This document shows, piece after piece, positions 35,531 to 42,890 of a DNA stretch of 64,000 nucleotides; the stretch's first letter is position 1; each line of letters opens with the position of its first letter. The position numbers and the translations under genes were made by a program. Under the pieces are notes generated by a model. That model ran no database searches and was not told the DNA's origin. It saw only the letters and a program-made list of their open reading frames with translations. Source of the DNA: Crambe crambe. Its lineage: Eukaryota; Porifera; Demospongiae; Poecilosclerida; Crambeidae. Location of the stretch: the NCBI GenBank assembly GCA_963924555.1, contig OZ004596.1, positions 5,466,139 to 5,530,138 of the forward strand, in the 5' to 3' direction.

Positions 35531-38500
35531 TTACATGTAGGTGATGAGATAAGCAGGATAAGCCTTTTCATTGTCATATGTCATGTACACCATCGAACCT
35601 GCTGTGTTTCCTGATACAGTGTCATATCGTACTCGATTACTGCCAGGCTTGAAGGGAGGCATGCGCAGCTCACTATTGGAAGGACAAAAAAGGCTTTCTC
35701 CGGTCAAAACCTTCACCAGAAACATTTCCATCAATCCTGTTCGTGAAGAGGAAATGCGAGACATGTAATTAAAAAAATTTCCCCGCTGGTACAAAGATCT
35801 TGCATTCTGGTGATATCCATAAGGGACACTTTGGATGCCATAAGAACTGCCAGCATCTCTAGGATGGGCATAATTGTGGCAGTACTTCGCATTCACAGCA
35901 AAATAGTTTGCCCTTCCCCACATACCAGAGGCACTGTAGCGCATATCGAAACCATCTCGTCCTTCGTATATATCCTTGGGGTCGTTTCCTCTGGAGCCAT
36001 GGAAGAGTTCCATCTCGTTCACAATGCCATTGTTGTCATCTTTCAAAACTTTTTTCTGGTGTGCATATTTCCTCCACAATTTTGTATTCTGGATCCTTAT
36101 TATTTTAACAATAGTGTGGTCCTCCATTGTTAATTCGAATTTGCTCGCCACGTACTCCCACTCATCAGACTCCCTGGTCAACTCAAACACTTCAACATCC
36201 TTTGTCTGTTTCACCCACTCAGCTGGAACCTCTTCTAGTAAGCTATCTTTAGCTGGAGTGGTTGTAGTGTCATGAAATTTCACAATTTCCTGTAGAATTG
36301 CTATTTTTGCGCTATCAATCTTCAATTTGGTTCCCATTAGCTTTAGCACTTTTTGCTGCTTTCCTGACAACTCTGAGGACATTTCAAATGAGCTTATGAC
36401 TCGGTTCTCTTTTGCTATTTCTTTGATTACTGTTTCCAGTTCTTCAGTGGTAGCTTCCGGCAGAGTTGTACTTGAATCTGATTTGATGCAGTCGTCCAAT
36501 GTCTTGAGTAACTTCTCTGCTGCACTGGATAAGTTTTCTTTGGGACCGCGCAATATTATAGCTACTTCAGGGAAGGTCTCTCCACTTTCCTCGTTCAGTG
36601 ATTTACACTCTCTCTGAATCACAAAGTCATGAATTGGCTGAGAGAGGGGTTGTTCCAAAAGAATAGGTCTTTGCATAGCCACAGACTGGGGAAGTGGCAT
36701 AGCCACAGACTGGGGAAGTGGCATAGCCACAGATTGGGGAAGTGGCATAGTGGGATGGGGAAGTGGAATAGTGATAGGGTATCGGAGAGGTGGAAAAGCA
36801 ATAGGCTGTGGAATTCCCAACCCTTGTCTTGGATGCACAGGATGTGCAAGTAAAGCCTTGCGTCCTTGGCCACTCAATGGAACTTCAGCCCTCACTTTTC
36901 TTTTGATCTTTCTTCTGAATCCAGTAATGACATTGATTTGTAGCATAAATGCAAAATCAATTTTATATACACTACGATTGACAGTAATCTGGCATGAACC
37001 ACGTGGGTTTGCTCGATAAGCCGAATTCAAAAGTTTGTTCACATCAGTGGTGTATGACGAAAAGCTTCCTTGATCGTTACTCCATTTCCAGATGTGTGTA
37101 TCTGGAGGTGAGACTTCTGCAGGAGGCAAGTCCAAAGCTTGTGCTTGTGCTTGGATGGAGGGGGCTGTGGGAAGCTTTACTTCTTGCTCCTTCTCCGTTT
37201 TTACAAAAGAGCAAAAGACATCAACAGTGCTCTGAGAAAATAGCACAAACCGAATTGTGCGAAGAGAAGTATCAGGATAGTCTTGACAGAAATCTTTCAC
37301 TGCTTTTAGGGATGCTTTTGCACATACTTTCTCTGGTACACCAAATATCCCCGTACTTATAGCTGGAAGGGAAATCGAAGTCAGAGAGTTTTCACTTGCC
37401 ATTTTGAGAGATTCAAGAACTGCTGAGCAAAGAAGACTTTCTTCATTACGCTCACCTCCACTCCATCTTGGTCCCACAGCATGTATGACGTTCTTACAAG
37501 ACAAGCGACCAGATCCTAAGCAAACAGCACTACCAGGACTCACTCTGGAGTTCTTCTCAATGTACTTATCACTTTCAGACTGGATATCAGGTCCTCCAGC
37601 ATCTGAAATATCCAGTGCCAAACCCCCAAAATGCTTCAGATCTTCATTGGCTGGATTCACGATAGCATCAACGCATTCTTGCAAAATATTGCCCTTGAAG
37701 ATGTTGACCTGCATGTATCTTTCTGTGTCAGCAAATTGTAAGTGCAAAATATGATTCAGAGTAGAAGTAACAAGAAATCTGTCTTCGAGTTCTGACTTCA
37801 GAGTAGAAAAATCTGGAGTGACAAGAAATGGGCTACAAATGGTTCTCACACTGACTTCCTTTTGGTCAATGTCTTTTTCAATGGCTCTGATAGTCGTCTC
37901 AACTATTTCAGATTTCGCAGCTTTGACTGATGACTCAATACCGACAACCTGGACCCCAACGCTAGGTGTCTTGAGCAAGTTGATGGACAGATTATAACTC
38001 CCAGCTATGGTGCGAGCTCTAGCAAGATATGGTTCAAAGTGTGATCCAGACTGCAGAACAAGCTGCACAACCGGGTCTTTGCTGGAAATGACATCACTGG
38101 TTATGATATTATCCCGAACAAACTCCCGAATATTTTTAGCAGCTGCATCAAGATCATCAGAGACTTCTTTCGGTGCATGAACTGTCACATTTCCTGTTGA
38201 GAGGTCAATATCTGAAATGAATACATTCAGATCACCAAGAAATTCCATTTCGTTCGTTCTTTTTGCATCATCAAGCATTTTGACCCCTTCCCTTGACAAA
38301 GAGATATCTTTAGTTTCAGTTTCGGTTTTACGGATCAGGCTTTTGATCTCTTCCATTTTATCATTGGAGGTGCCAATAATTTCAAATGTGACACGAGTTT
38401 TGGCCGAAGATTTTTTAGTCACTTTATAAAACGTTATGAGAGTCTTGGAGCCTTTTTCTTCCTTCGCTGCAAGTTGCTGCCAATACTTCTTCCACATTTC

Positions 38501-41500
38501 ATACAACTTCGAGTCACAAGTCACAGAAAAAGATTCGGAAGATACTTTCATGCTTAGTAGTCTGGACTTCAACTCACCCATCACTTCTTTCACTTGCTTC
38601 AAAGATCCTGTTACTTCTAAGAAGTAATCATCACTGTTTTCATTTGGCACAAGCAATGTGAGTTCTGAACACTTATTTCTTAATTCAAGCAGTTCCTTCT
38701 CATATGCACTATCCAAAAGCTTGCCTTGATGGACATTAAGGGGAATCTGCTTTAAATTTTGTGTTGATTCAATTGCATCAGTTAATTCCTCATAACATTG
38801 CTGAATTTCGTCCATTATAAGACCAGATATGACTACTGAGGACTGCTTATATGAAATTTTAACAGAAAATTTATTTTCCAGCTTATCTTGCAACTCCATC
38901 ACTGCTTCTTTAGCATCTCCATCCAGGGAATATTGTTTACTTCCCGGATTCAGTCGATCAAGCAACTTGCAAGCTTCTTTATAAACATCTAAATTCTTGC
39001 AAAATATATAAATAACAGTAGCCGAATCTTGAGAATCCATACTTGTAGTGGAAAGATTCTCTTGCACTATCTTAAAGTCAAAGGTGGAGTCTCTTCTCTT
39101 AAAGGGGATTAAAATACGTTCCTTGGTAAGAGATATCAAAGTAGGCTGGTCAAAATGCACAATCACTTTGTGACAATGGATTTCTGATAGCATATCATTC
39201 AATATCATTGTTTTAGTACACTCAATTGAAGAAAGACTTCCAGTTAAAAAAACCTTTTCTCCATCGAAAATAAGTCTAGCAGGAAACTGTGATAGTTTGG
39301 ATTCATTTACGAAAGACTGTAAGAAAATTGCTTCTTCAGGTTTGCAAGGCAATGGCCTAACAAGCAGTGATTCTATGATAGACATCACATAATCCATGCT
39401 TGAGTGAAGTCGACTGGAGTAACACAATAGTAGAACATTTTTCACAGGTGATTCTGGAAGGGAAATGTAAACCTCTTCAGACCGTAGCCTTTCTCTCAAC
39501 GTGTCAAGCAGCTCCTCCTGCAACTCACTCTTGAGACTCACACCACCAATCAGAAATTCTTGCTCCACTAAGCTCATTTCTTCGTGAGCCTTTTCGATGT
39601 CATATATCGGCCCATCAAATAGTATTTTTTCTGAGCCTGCTCTGTATCCAGTCACATGCACACCACATTTTTGTTCAATTATAGAAGCGAGAGACGGCTT
39701 CAGGTACACCAAAGCCTCCATCTTCAACCTGAAATAATAACAATAATAATAAGTATTGCTATAACAGAAGTTGTCCATAATATGCCATGTCATAATAATT
39801 ATCTACTCTACACATTATAATAAACAGGCAGTTCCCATACACAGCTAATTTTCTTACTCACTTGTGGATAGGAAATGAATTAAGATGCATTGTAACATCT
39901 TGGTAAGCATACTCAACAGCTTCTTTCTTGCCAAAGAATTGTAATGCCTTTTCAGCACTTGCATCCAACAGCTGGATACTAATGTTTCTATTGTTGTGAT
40001 AAGGAAGAAGGATGTTATTCAACAAGGTGCTTCCAGTTGATTCTACAACCGTCATTAGTCTAGTCCACCGACTAGGTAACAGTTTCATAACCGCACACAC
40101 TTCTTCCACAGTGCTGCTGCCACTACTTGGAGGTGATACTATCCTTGCTGGTAATGGTTCTGTCACCTTTATTGTAATCACTGATCCTTTAAATGTAGTG
40201 TTGTGGAGTGTCTGGTAAGCACTTTCTGCAGCTGCTAGAGTCTTGAAGTCAATACGAGCATAAGGATTTCTCCCATCGGAGGAGAATAACTTGGGAGCAC
40301 TGTCCAGTTCTCCAAAAACTTCAAATCGTTTACGAAGATCTTGAACAGTTACTGATTGAGAAACATGTGAAACCTTTATCGATCCCTTTGGCTGCAGTCT
40401 TGTAGCACTTTCTTCAAAGTGTTGAGAAAGTAATGTTGTGTTCGGTGTTCCCATTGATGGAGTGTAAGATGACTTGCTCACTGAAAGTGGTTCTGTCACC
40501 TTTATTGTTATCACAGAACCTTTAAAGTAAGTGTTATGGAGTTTTCGATAAGCACTCTCTGCAGCATCTGGAGTTTTGAAGTTAACTCGAGCATAAGGGT
40601 TCTTCCCTTTGGGTGAGAACAGCTTTGGAGTACCATCAAGTTCTCCAAATTTTTCAAATAGTTTACGAAGATCCCGAACAGTTGTTGAGTGTGAAACATG
40701 CGAAACTTTTATTGATGATTTCAGGGCTTCCCGAGTATGTTGAAAATCAAACTGCTGAGTGGATGCTTGGTCAGAACCGAAGTGCTCAGAAAATAGATCT
40801 TTTTTGGACTGAGTACTACCTCCATGGAGCACATCAGAGAACCCTGACAAAGGGTAAGATGATAATGTCAATGATGCTGCTGTATTCTCCAAGACAGGAA
40901 ATTGAGAAATATCGTATGTTGGAGGTTGCACTTGAGACAGAAATGGATAATCTGAGTTATCACCAAATTCAAATTTATCCTCAGAACTTAACCTGGAACT
41001 TCTCATTTTTTCCTTAGCGGATCGAGAGGGACGAGCAGGATCTTCAAACTTCAAAGATATGGAGTAGTTACCCAATACTTTGGTGCCTTTCATTTTTAGA
41101 ATGGCACGCTCAGCAGTAGCTCTTGAAGAGAATGCTACCACACCAATACCTGTCGTTTCCTTGGTCGCACGGTTTCTAATAACGTAGGCATCAATGGGGT
41201 TAAACATGCGAAAATGTTGCTTCAAATCTTCATCAGATAGAATATTTGGGAATTTCGGGTCAGAGTATATAAAAACCTTACACTTGTCACTTTCACCGAC
41301 AGAGCCTGAACTAACAGAGAGTGAACGGGTACAGGGTTGAGGTGAGGACAAAACTTCAGCAGCATTCTGATGCTTGAGGTTCACCATCTGAGCATACGTG
41401 CCACGTTTCATCGACCACGGATTATCAGATAAATCCTTAGAAAAACTCACACTGATCTGCATATCTCTTAGTGAGCTATCTTTAATATCACTACCTTTTA

Positions 41501-42890
41501 GTAAGCTGTTATTGAAAGCTCCAATTGCATCTCTACCACTAGCCAGTGATGAGAAAGTTACGATAAACTGGCGAATATCCTGCAAAAGTTCAACTTCGAT
41601 AATCTCTGAGCCAAAACGTTTGAAGTGCTCCCACATGTGCTGCTCCAAAATATAATCTGGAAAAGTGGGACCAACTATGACTTTACAATTTCCTGATTTC
41701 CCTTCAGCTATGTTTTCTTGAGCGACAGAGGACTGTTCTTGATCTGACTGAGGTTGGAATGCCATCACCTCAAGCACATGCTCGTCGTCAAGTGACATGC
41801 CATTCAAATCCTTGATTGCTTCAGCTCCAAGGCTTTCCGGAACCAATAAAACGCAAGCAGTAGTCGTATTTGGTTCCATTATTATCATGCTGATAAAGTT
41901 TTTATCGTAGCCTCTTCCAATGATGCAATCTGGGAAACAGTGCTTCACGGATGGATGGAATTTCAGAAAGAGATGAGCCACCGATTTCCCTAGTAAAGCA
42001 CGAGGAATGGTCGGGGGAAGAATAGGAAGGACTTCAATCTGATTAAAGCCTTGAATTGTCAAAGGCTATGAACAAAATTACAAACAAAACAACATTAATA
42101 AGCATGAAGAAGTAAGATTTGTATGCATAGACTTCGTATGGTACCAATAGTCCATATTTATTTCACAGGTTAACATCAGACACAGCTACAGTGAATACTT
42201 CAAGATATCCATCCATAGCTACACTTCAGATCCCCTGCAATGAGCAGCCCTAAGGGATGTATTGTCCATTTTATTATAGCCACATAGCCGTGTACATGTA
42301 CACTTAAAATCCCCCCTAAAAAAACTTACCCAAAATTATTAAACAATGCTTGGCTCCTTATGCACTGTACGTATGCCAAGAATGCTCAAAGGATGCTCAA
42401 TGCATTACATTTAATTAGGGTGGATTATTTAATTCCTCTTATGCCCACAATCACAGACCCATTAAACATAACCATTTCATATTCAGTTGTAATAATAAAC
42501 TGTCAGAGAAGGCAACAAACATTACAATTGAATTACATAATAATGTATACCAGATTATTAAACGGATCGGTTTGCCACTTTCCATCAACATAGAAGTGAT
42601 AATAATGGAGACCCACAGAGAGTTTGAAGGCTCTGTACACATCACCTGAGCTGTAATGAGAGACAAAATTGCAAATGACAATAAATTCTCACTTAGTTAT
42701 AACAGTAGTTAACTGTTTTCAATGAATAGGGACATTGTTAGAGCTACAGTAAACTAAGATAATTAAAACTGAACCTCGTTTGGGTCGTTAGGGGAACTTT
42801 CTGCCAGTCGGTGAAACTGCCACTAAGGAATACTCTCTTCCCATCTCCTGGCCAGCGAAAGTAAGTATACTTGGAGTGAGACTCAGTCAT
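35531..42890 (-). CDS. CBM48-RRM-macro-WWE-PARP protein (PARP14/10-like mono-ART with a glycogen-binding module)
   Basis: Four exons in transcript order, 42775-42890, 42551-42650, 39862-42065 and 35531-39728, join in phase into 2205 residues. The start at 42890 has A at -3. Residues about 8-85 form an AMPK-beta-type CBM48 (YFRWPGDGKRVFLSGSFTDW ... FYVDGKW ... GFNQIEV), and its last strand is encoded by the RRM exon. RRM-like units follow near 195-285, 332-415, 522-600 and 632-710; the last two are near-duplicates. KH-like segments come next, then one macro domain (about 1471-1650; NIFKGNILQECVDAIVNPAN), a WWE domain (about 1685-1755), a PLPQSVAM tandem repeat and a C-terminal PARP domain (about 1976-2205). 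The PARP domain has the His of FHGSR and the Tyr of ANYFAV. A hydrophobic residue stands where PARP1 has its catalytic Glu, so mono-ADP-ribosylation is expected. PARP10/14 relatives act in RNA-linked and stress/immune signalling. Confidence 0.82.
36665..36760. repeat. 24-bp in-frame tandem repeat in the PARP gene
   Basis: Three or more copies of a 24-bp unit (gcatagccacagactggggaagtg on plus) encode PLPQSVAM repeats in the linker between the WWE and PARP domains. Confidence 0.9.

Follow-up and report, generated by a model that had tools for sequence, protein, structure and literature searches.

A predicted AMPK-beta-type CBM48 joined to a PARP14-like enzyme in the sponge Crambe crambe

An AMPK-type carbohydrate-binding module (CBM) is joined to another partner in plant AKIN-beta-gamma, which remains in the SnRK1 kinase complex. 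Carbohydrate recognition and ADP-ribosylation share no protein known to us. We analysed a stretch of 64,000 nucleotides from the demosponge Crambe crambe (assembly GCA_963924555.1, contig OZ004596.1, positions 5,466,139 to 5,530,138; hereafter the window), which holds on its minus strand a gene whose predicted protein comprises, in this order, a CBM of family 48 (CBM48), three clear RRMs, a macrodomain, a WWE domain and a PARP catalytic domain. We are confident that the CBM48 and the PARP are parts of one gene.

The window protein shares with PARP14 (of the clade 3 macro-PARPs, which also include PARP9, PARP10 and PARP15) the RRMs, the WWE domain and the closest macrodomain and ADP-ribosyltransferase (ART) domain. 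It differs from PARP14 by its N-terminal AMPK-type CBM48, by the single macrodomain found in it (PARP14 has three) and by its KH repeats, which were not detected in the window protein and are weak in its paralogs, whereas many KH domains were predicted in PARP14 from AlphaFold models (PMC10450202). PARP14 is reported to be both a transferase and a hydrolase (PMC10499325, PMC10470015). PARP14-like genes are clustered in the lancelet and often duplicated in sponge, and Amphimedon has six PARP14-like proteins with a macrodomain, some with a WWE, some with an RRM and one with a Radial spoke3 domain, according to a PARP survey (PMC4245714); the paralogs of the window gene are clustered too. RNF213, a large immune enzyme, carries a module of starch-binding type (CBM20) at its N-terminus and in this resembles the window protein. 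The CBM family and the effector are different (RNF213 is an E3 ubiquitin ligase) and we claim no homology, but among functional precedents RNF213 may be the closest. Positive selection acts on its CBM20 and on the stalk next to it, and its authors offer as a speculation that the CBM20 serves as a receptor (PMC11549300).

In the original prediction, made from the sequence of the window, no protein of the type CBM48-RRM-macro-WWE-PARP was known to have been described, and the open-access literature is in line with this: no paper was found that combines CBM48 and PARP. No pairing of AMPK1_CBM with a macro domain or PARP, or of PARP14 with a glycogen-binding domain or CBM48, appeared in the retrieved portions of this literature, and those on sponge macrodomain PARPs, glycogen and ADP-ribosylation, the CBMs of RNF213, sponge immunity and AMPK fusions describe no such protein. 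The excerpted Amphimedon survey (PMC4245714) mentions neither "glycogen" nor "carbohydrate", and the evolution section of a 2026 review of PARP14 (PMC13224862) mentions sponge paralogs and no CBM48-PARP fusion.

Gene structure and the N-terminal CBM48

The four exons of the window gene join in frame, with GT-AG borders at all three introns, into a coding sequence of 6,618 nt (2,205 residues) whose sole stop is the terminal one. The exon coordinates and the phases predicted for the first two junctions (2, then 0) are thus borne out. The exons and the segment at the start of the third are as follows.

42775 to 42890, minus strand: exon 1 (116 nt), with the start codon and the first half of the CBM48 (residues 1-38 plus 2 nt, including W29), ending in phase 2.
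42551 to 42650, minus strand: exon 2 (100 nt), with the second half of the CBM48 (including W64 and the His at the K126 position), ending in phase 0.
39862 to 42065, minus strand: exon 3, with the end of the CBM48, a stretch without assigned domain and the RRM region.
42030 to 42065, minus strand: the opening 12 codons of exon 3, encoding PLTIQGFNQIEV, the presumed last strand of the CBM48.
35531 to 39728, minus strand: exon 4, with a conserved region of about 650 residues, the macrodomain, the WWE domain, the PARP domain and the stop codon.

The spliced exons 1 and 2 match the Pfam profile AMPK1_CBM with 58.5 bits (E 7.9e-16; cut-off 26.8). Exon 1 alone reaches 29.3 bits and exon 2 alone 23.9 bits, so each half is weak on its own and it is the spliced product that carries the signal. 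The best match of this product in the PDB is AMPK-beta1 (4yef, E 1e-15); among at least 20 distinct sequences matched at E<=1, it is followed by beta-2, by SIP2 and, with weak matches, by a pullulanase and plant glucan phosphatases. NCBIfam gave no CBM match. By sequence similarity, the N-terminal domain of the window protein is a CBM48, as the original prediction had claimed.

The assembly that we searched (143 Mb, 119 contigs) also encodes the AMPK beta subunit itself, 70% identical to AMPK-beta1 (4yef) over 63 residues. At least four genomic places match the CBM family at E<=0.001: one in the window, two at the AMPK-beta exons on contig C9 and one on contig C5. The last is an open reading frame of 434 residues (L001:565-1866, minus strand) that couples an AMPK1_CBM match (42.6 bits) to a putative esterase domain (80.6 bits), a CBM48 fusion of another kind. 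We rejected this CBM-esterase as a close relative, the similarity being distant (25% over 52 residues).

The introns of the AMPK-beta CBM in the same genome interrupt PMTN-AG/C-QGD in phase 2 and follow DPTE/ in phase 0 (the slash marks the intron), and those of the window CBM interrupt PLTTQT-AG/C-SGD in phase 2 and follow DPFNNL/ in phase 0. In the alignment, the first intron thus falls in the same codon and phase in both genes, and the second in the same phase with positions two codons apart. These shared positions and phases suggest that the CBM exons, introns included, descend from an AMPK-beta gene. Together with the similarity of the proteins, they lead us to infer this origin for the window CBM. 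An intron of the AMPK-beta gene also contains a very long CT microsatellite (around L003:1636-2147), with further CT runs around L002:1316-1443.

Paralogs and the integrity of the gene

The spliced CBM, used as a query against the same assembly, gave at least ten matches at E<=10: three in the window, four on contig C6, two at AMPK-beta and one on C5. An 80-kb stretch of C6 contains four relatives of the window gene, here called A, B, C and D. Genes C and D comprise the RRM-to-PARP part; the two that carry a CBM are the following.

C6:6513300 down to 6504002, minus strand: gene A, with the CBM exons followed by RRM, macro, WWE and PARP.
C6:6477986-6494034 (L046-L048), plus strand: gene B, with a CBM48 (61.0 bits), RRMs, part of a KH-like region and a Roc/COR-like tail.

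Two further relatives on contig C8 were seen as matches only, and among the CBM matches listed none lies at this pair. Collections of prokaryote genomes and of viral contigs gave 18 and 5 pattern matches, respectively, with no confirmed relative in either, which is expected for an animal gene.

Gene A has the design of the window gene on another contig. Its five GT-AG exons encode 2,256 residues without internal stop, and its CBM scores 58.8 bits against AMPK1_CBM. The CBM exons again end in phases 2 and 0, and the end of exon 2 (DPSNIL/) lies two codons beyond the DPTE/ of AMPK-beta, as does that of the window gene. The two proteins have clearly diverged: they are 39.5% identical over 984 middle positions, 45% over 385 positions at the PARP end, 31% over 360 positions in the first RRM part and 49% over 74 residues in the CBM. 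An accident of gene prediction is therefore unlikely, and one confined to the window was rejected in view of gene A and of the open frame that the end of the CBM shares with the RRMs.

This shared frame deserves attention. The original prediction had assigned the last CBM48 strand to the start of the RRM exon, and the presumed strand recurs in both other copies as a small exon following the same phase-0 intron (PLTNQGRSQVTIFD in A, PLTDKGHSQVNILNYD in B). A blastn of A against B, in which two islands of the intron following CBM exon 2 stood out as conserved, led to these small exons. As a control, all AG dinucleotides of the window and of the C6 stretch were taken on both strands, and the 12 residues that come next, where open (10,525 peptides including the reference), were scored against the window strand. 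The reference itself scores 61, the exon of A 32 and that of B 31, whereas the remaining 10,522 peptides reach at most 17. The small exon ranks first among the 78 candidates in the intron of A and first among the 159 in that of B. The second island (48 bases, 79% identical between A and B; C6:6512178-6512225, or L049:7178-7225, and C6:6483727-6483769) is not accounted for by the exons found.

These data bear on the alternative of adjoining but separate transcription units, one for the CBM48 and one for the PARP. Such an arrangement would fit a splicing pattern read from genomic sequence alone, an unspliced reading from the start codon that meets a stop after 48 residues, and window donors (GAG/GTTCAG and CTG/GTATAC) that look weak against the general consensus; paralog A has CGG/GTACGC and CTG/GTATGT at the same places. 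It is hard to reconcile with a last CBM strand lying in one open frame with the RRMs, a frame in which the first ATG is only the 60th codon. The phase-0 junction after CBM exon 2 is moreover kept in all three copies (window, A and B) and the whole arrangement recurs at A, so that we regard separate units as very improbable. The fusion claimed in the original prediction is instead upheld by the architecture of A, the AMPK-beta-like positions and phases of the introns and the conservation of the last CBM strand across the paralogs.

The comparison of A and B suggests, from small counts, that the CBM is under constraint. Between the two genes, identity is 89% in CBM exon 1 and 98% in CBM exon 2, whereas intron 1 gives no blastn alignment and intron 2 aligns at just the small exon and the 48-base island. 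The non-synonymous and synonymous divergences of the CBM are 0.053 and 0.147 (dN and dS), with 13 changed codons of which four are silent.

Gene B has the same front end and a different tail. It reads over seven exons with GT-AG borders (phases at the exon ends 2, 0, 1, 2, 2 and 1, then the stop, with joins drawn from the sequence) and encodes 1,562 residues, with no continuation into macro-PARP. Behind a P-loop recognised by eye, the tail matches COR-A at E 1e-5 and 25.9 bits, below the cut-off of 35.3. If the reading of B is right, the same CBM48-RRM front end would serve two different effectors. It is conceivable, and in our view rather unlikely, that CBM48-RRM is a portable intracellular sensor of carbohydrate and RNA which this lineage coupled to more than one effector: ADP-ribosylation for the window gene and for A, and for B a Roc/COR-like GTPase tail. 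A complete reading of B strengthens this suggestion. It is weakened by the position of a Death-like open reading frame (L048:289-780, E 3.4e-4, slightly below cut-off), which starts about 1.3 kb past the stop codon of B and for this reason was rejected as part of the gene. A Death domain in the N-terminal exon of D, or in the exon before the Roc/COR region of B, was also discarded, as there is no such Pfam match.

The RRM-to-PARP part

The domains beyond the CBM48 were placed by profile searches, those of the RRM region, in which Pfam marks three RRM_1 stretches, by Pfam scans of six fragments of exon 3.

41481 to 41660, minus strand: weak RRM match, residues 208-267 (E 0.056, below cut-off).
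41067 to 41252, minus strand: RRM, about residues 344-405 (47.5 bits).
40509 to 40706, minus strand: RRM, about residues 526-591 (40.4 bits).
40176 to 40373, minus strand: RRM, about residues 637-702 (31.7 bits).
37316 to 37660, minus strand: macrodomain (103 bits; closest solved relative PARP14 3vfq, E 8.5e-52).
36899 to 37093, minus strand: WWE domain (Pfam, 52 bits).
35534 to 36169, minus strand: PARP (ART) catalytic domain (Pfam, 40 bits, the match ending at 35696).

The original prediction had the CBM48 exons joined to an RRM exon. The junction stands, but the clear RRMs start only at about residue 344, and residues 85-200, directly after the CBM, gave no Pfam match in the fragment scans. 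The region of about 650 residues between the RRMs and the macrodomain is conserved among four paralogs, with 35-38% identity to the window protein. Pfam matched no KH domain in the window, KH models stay below cut-off everywhere in A, C and D, and a profile of the region built from four paralogs had no match in the PDB. NCBIfam gave 11 matches in exon 4, none of which leaves the macrodomain stretch or reaches its cut-off.

The macrodomain and the ART domain are closest to PARP14, as judged by the best match among solved structures. The alignment to 3vfq has two stretches, the better-scoring of which falls on the first of its macrodomains. The ART domain matches PARP14 3goy best (E 1.4e-23), with a second alignment stretch that extends to the C-terminus. 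In this alignment a His and a Tyr are kept and a Val is aligned with a Leu of PARP14; we take these three positions to be the ART catalytic triad, with Val in the third. A residue other than Glu in the third position is the pattern of mono-ADP-ribosyltransferases, and the predicted activity of the window enzyme is thus that of a PARP14-like mono-ADP-ribosyltransferase. A short Pro-rich repeat (MPLPQSVA) occurs three times between the WWE and PARP domains, at about positions 36660-36760 of the window. Genome-wide, the PARP catalytic domain has at least 42 exon-level matches, several of them clustered on contigs C1, C5, C6, C8 and C9, which makes for a large PARP set.

Ligand, mechanism and significance

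What the CBM48 may bind depends on the residues that contact glycogen in AMPK-beta. In the isolated CBM of AMPK-beta1, W100G and K126Q abolish glycogen binding and W133L reduces it (PMC6274970). W29 and W64 of the window protein correspond to W100 and W133, and both Trp are present in all three copies; K126 is lost in all three, being replaced by His in the window (our alignment agrees here with the original prediction) and by Met in A and B. In AMPK-beta1 this lysine matters for binding glycogen and does not define the CBM48 fold. The segment that follows DP has two residues fewer than its AMPK-beta counterpart and admits more than one alignment, so the equivalents of L146, T148 and N150, also glycogen contacts of AMPK-beta, are not securely assignable. 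An Asn said to be retained and an Ile said to replace L146 therefore depend on the alignment chosen. With K126 lost and the L146-N150 segment shortened, the glycogen-binding mode of AMPK may be gone.

Within these bounds, our tentative proposal, to which we give somewhat less than even credence, is that the window gene encodes a carbohydrate-recruited, RNA-sampling, mono-ADP-ribosylating enzyme of innate immunity. Gene structure and domain identity can be read from the sequence; the ligand, the catalysis and the immune role are what we infer. A PARP14-like gene would have gained an N-terminal CBM from an AMPK-beta gene prior to the duplication that separated the paralogs. The CBM48 would position the protein on a glucan or a glycan-bearing surface, and the binding of some such ligand is possible. 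The RRMs would sample RNA, the ART domain would add single ADP-riboses to a nearby protein or nucleic acid, and the PARP14-like macrodomain would read or remove them. Like PARP14, the protein would act in intracellular innate immunity, where the CBM would serve recognition or recruitment, as proposed for the CBM20 of RNF213.

Several points weigh against this proposal or restrict it. Glycogen binding in the manner of AMPK is doubtful for the window CBM. No CBM was found at C or D by blastn from A or by loose tblastn with the CBM of A (best chance match E 1.1) in the stretches compared, namely 13.4 kb for C (6.8 kb of it upstream of the match to A) and 18 kb for D (11 kb upstream). Of the four macro-PARP genes examined closely, two (the window gene and A) thus have the CBM and two (C and D) show none; it is not general to the paralog group, and we reject the idea that all PARP14-like paralogs carry it. 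The gene joins are drawn from genomic sequence, the acceptor of the RRM exon of A was picked to fit the phase, and the copies were compared within one genome. Finally, with KH models below cut-off and the Death-like frame outside B, the immune context rests mainly on the kinship with PARP14.

Some of these points would equally suit a real fusion in which the CBM48 no longer binds carbohydrate and acts as a module for folding or protein interaction, for example by docking on the kinase domain of AMPK alpha. The replacement of K126 by His or Met in all copies, the shortened final segment and the lack of a detectable CBM in sister paralogs C and D are all consistent with this explanation, yet both stacking Trp are kept in all three copies despite a CBM as diverged as that of the window gene and A. 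We consider such a loss of binding a lesser, still appreciable possibility. The CBM might also serve metabolism, by tethering a mono-ADP-ribosylating enzyme to cytosolic glycogen, where it would modify glycogen enzymes or mark abnormal polyglucosan. Its closest relative is indeed a glycogen-binding subunit, and both kinds of mark occur, HOIL-1 ubiquitinating polyglucosan and DELTEX ligases ADP-ribose (PMC13270118). The loss of K126 and the remainder of the protein, of PARP14 type with RRMs, speak against this role, which we regard as somewhat less likely still.

If the proposal of a carbohydrate-recruited enzyme is right, the window protein would be a direct physical link from carbohydrate recognition to ADP-ribosylation. 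A module of an energy sensor would have been recruited into a family of enzymes noted for antiviral roles and rapid evolution, prior to a duplication that left copies about 40% identical today. The protein would then offer a test case for whether the N-terminal CBMs of giant immune enzymes such as RNF213 act as receptors. Were the front end a portable sensor as well, it would represent a new family of receptors that sense glycans in the cytosol and derive from a subunit of AMPK.

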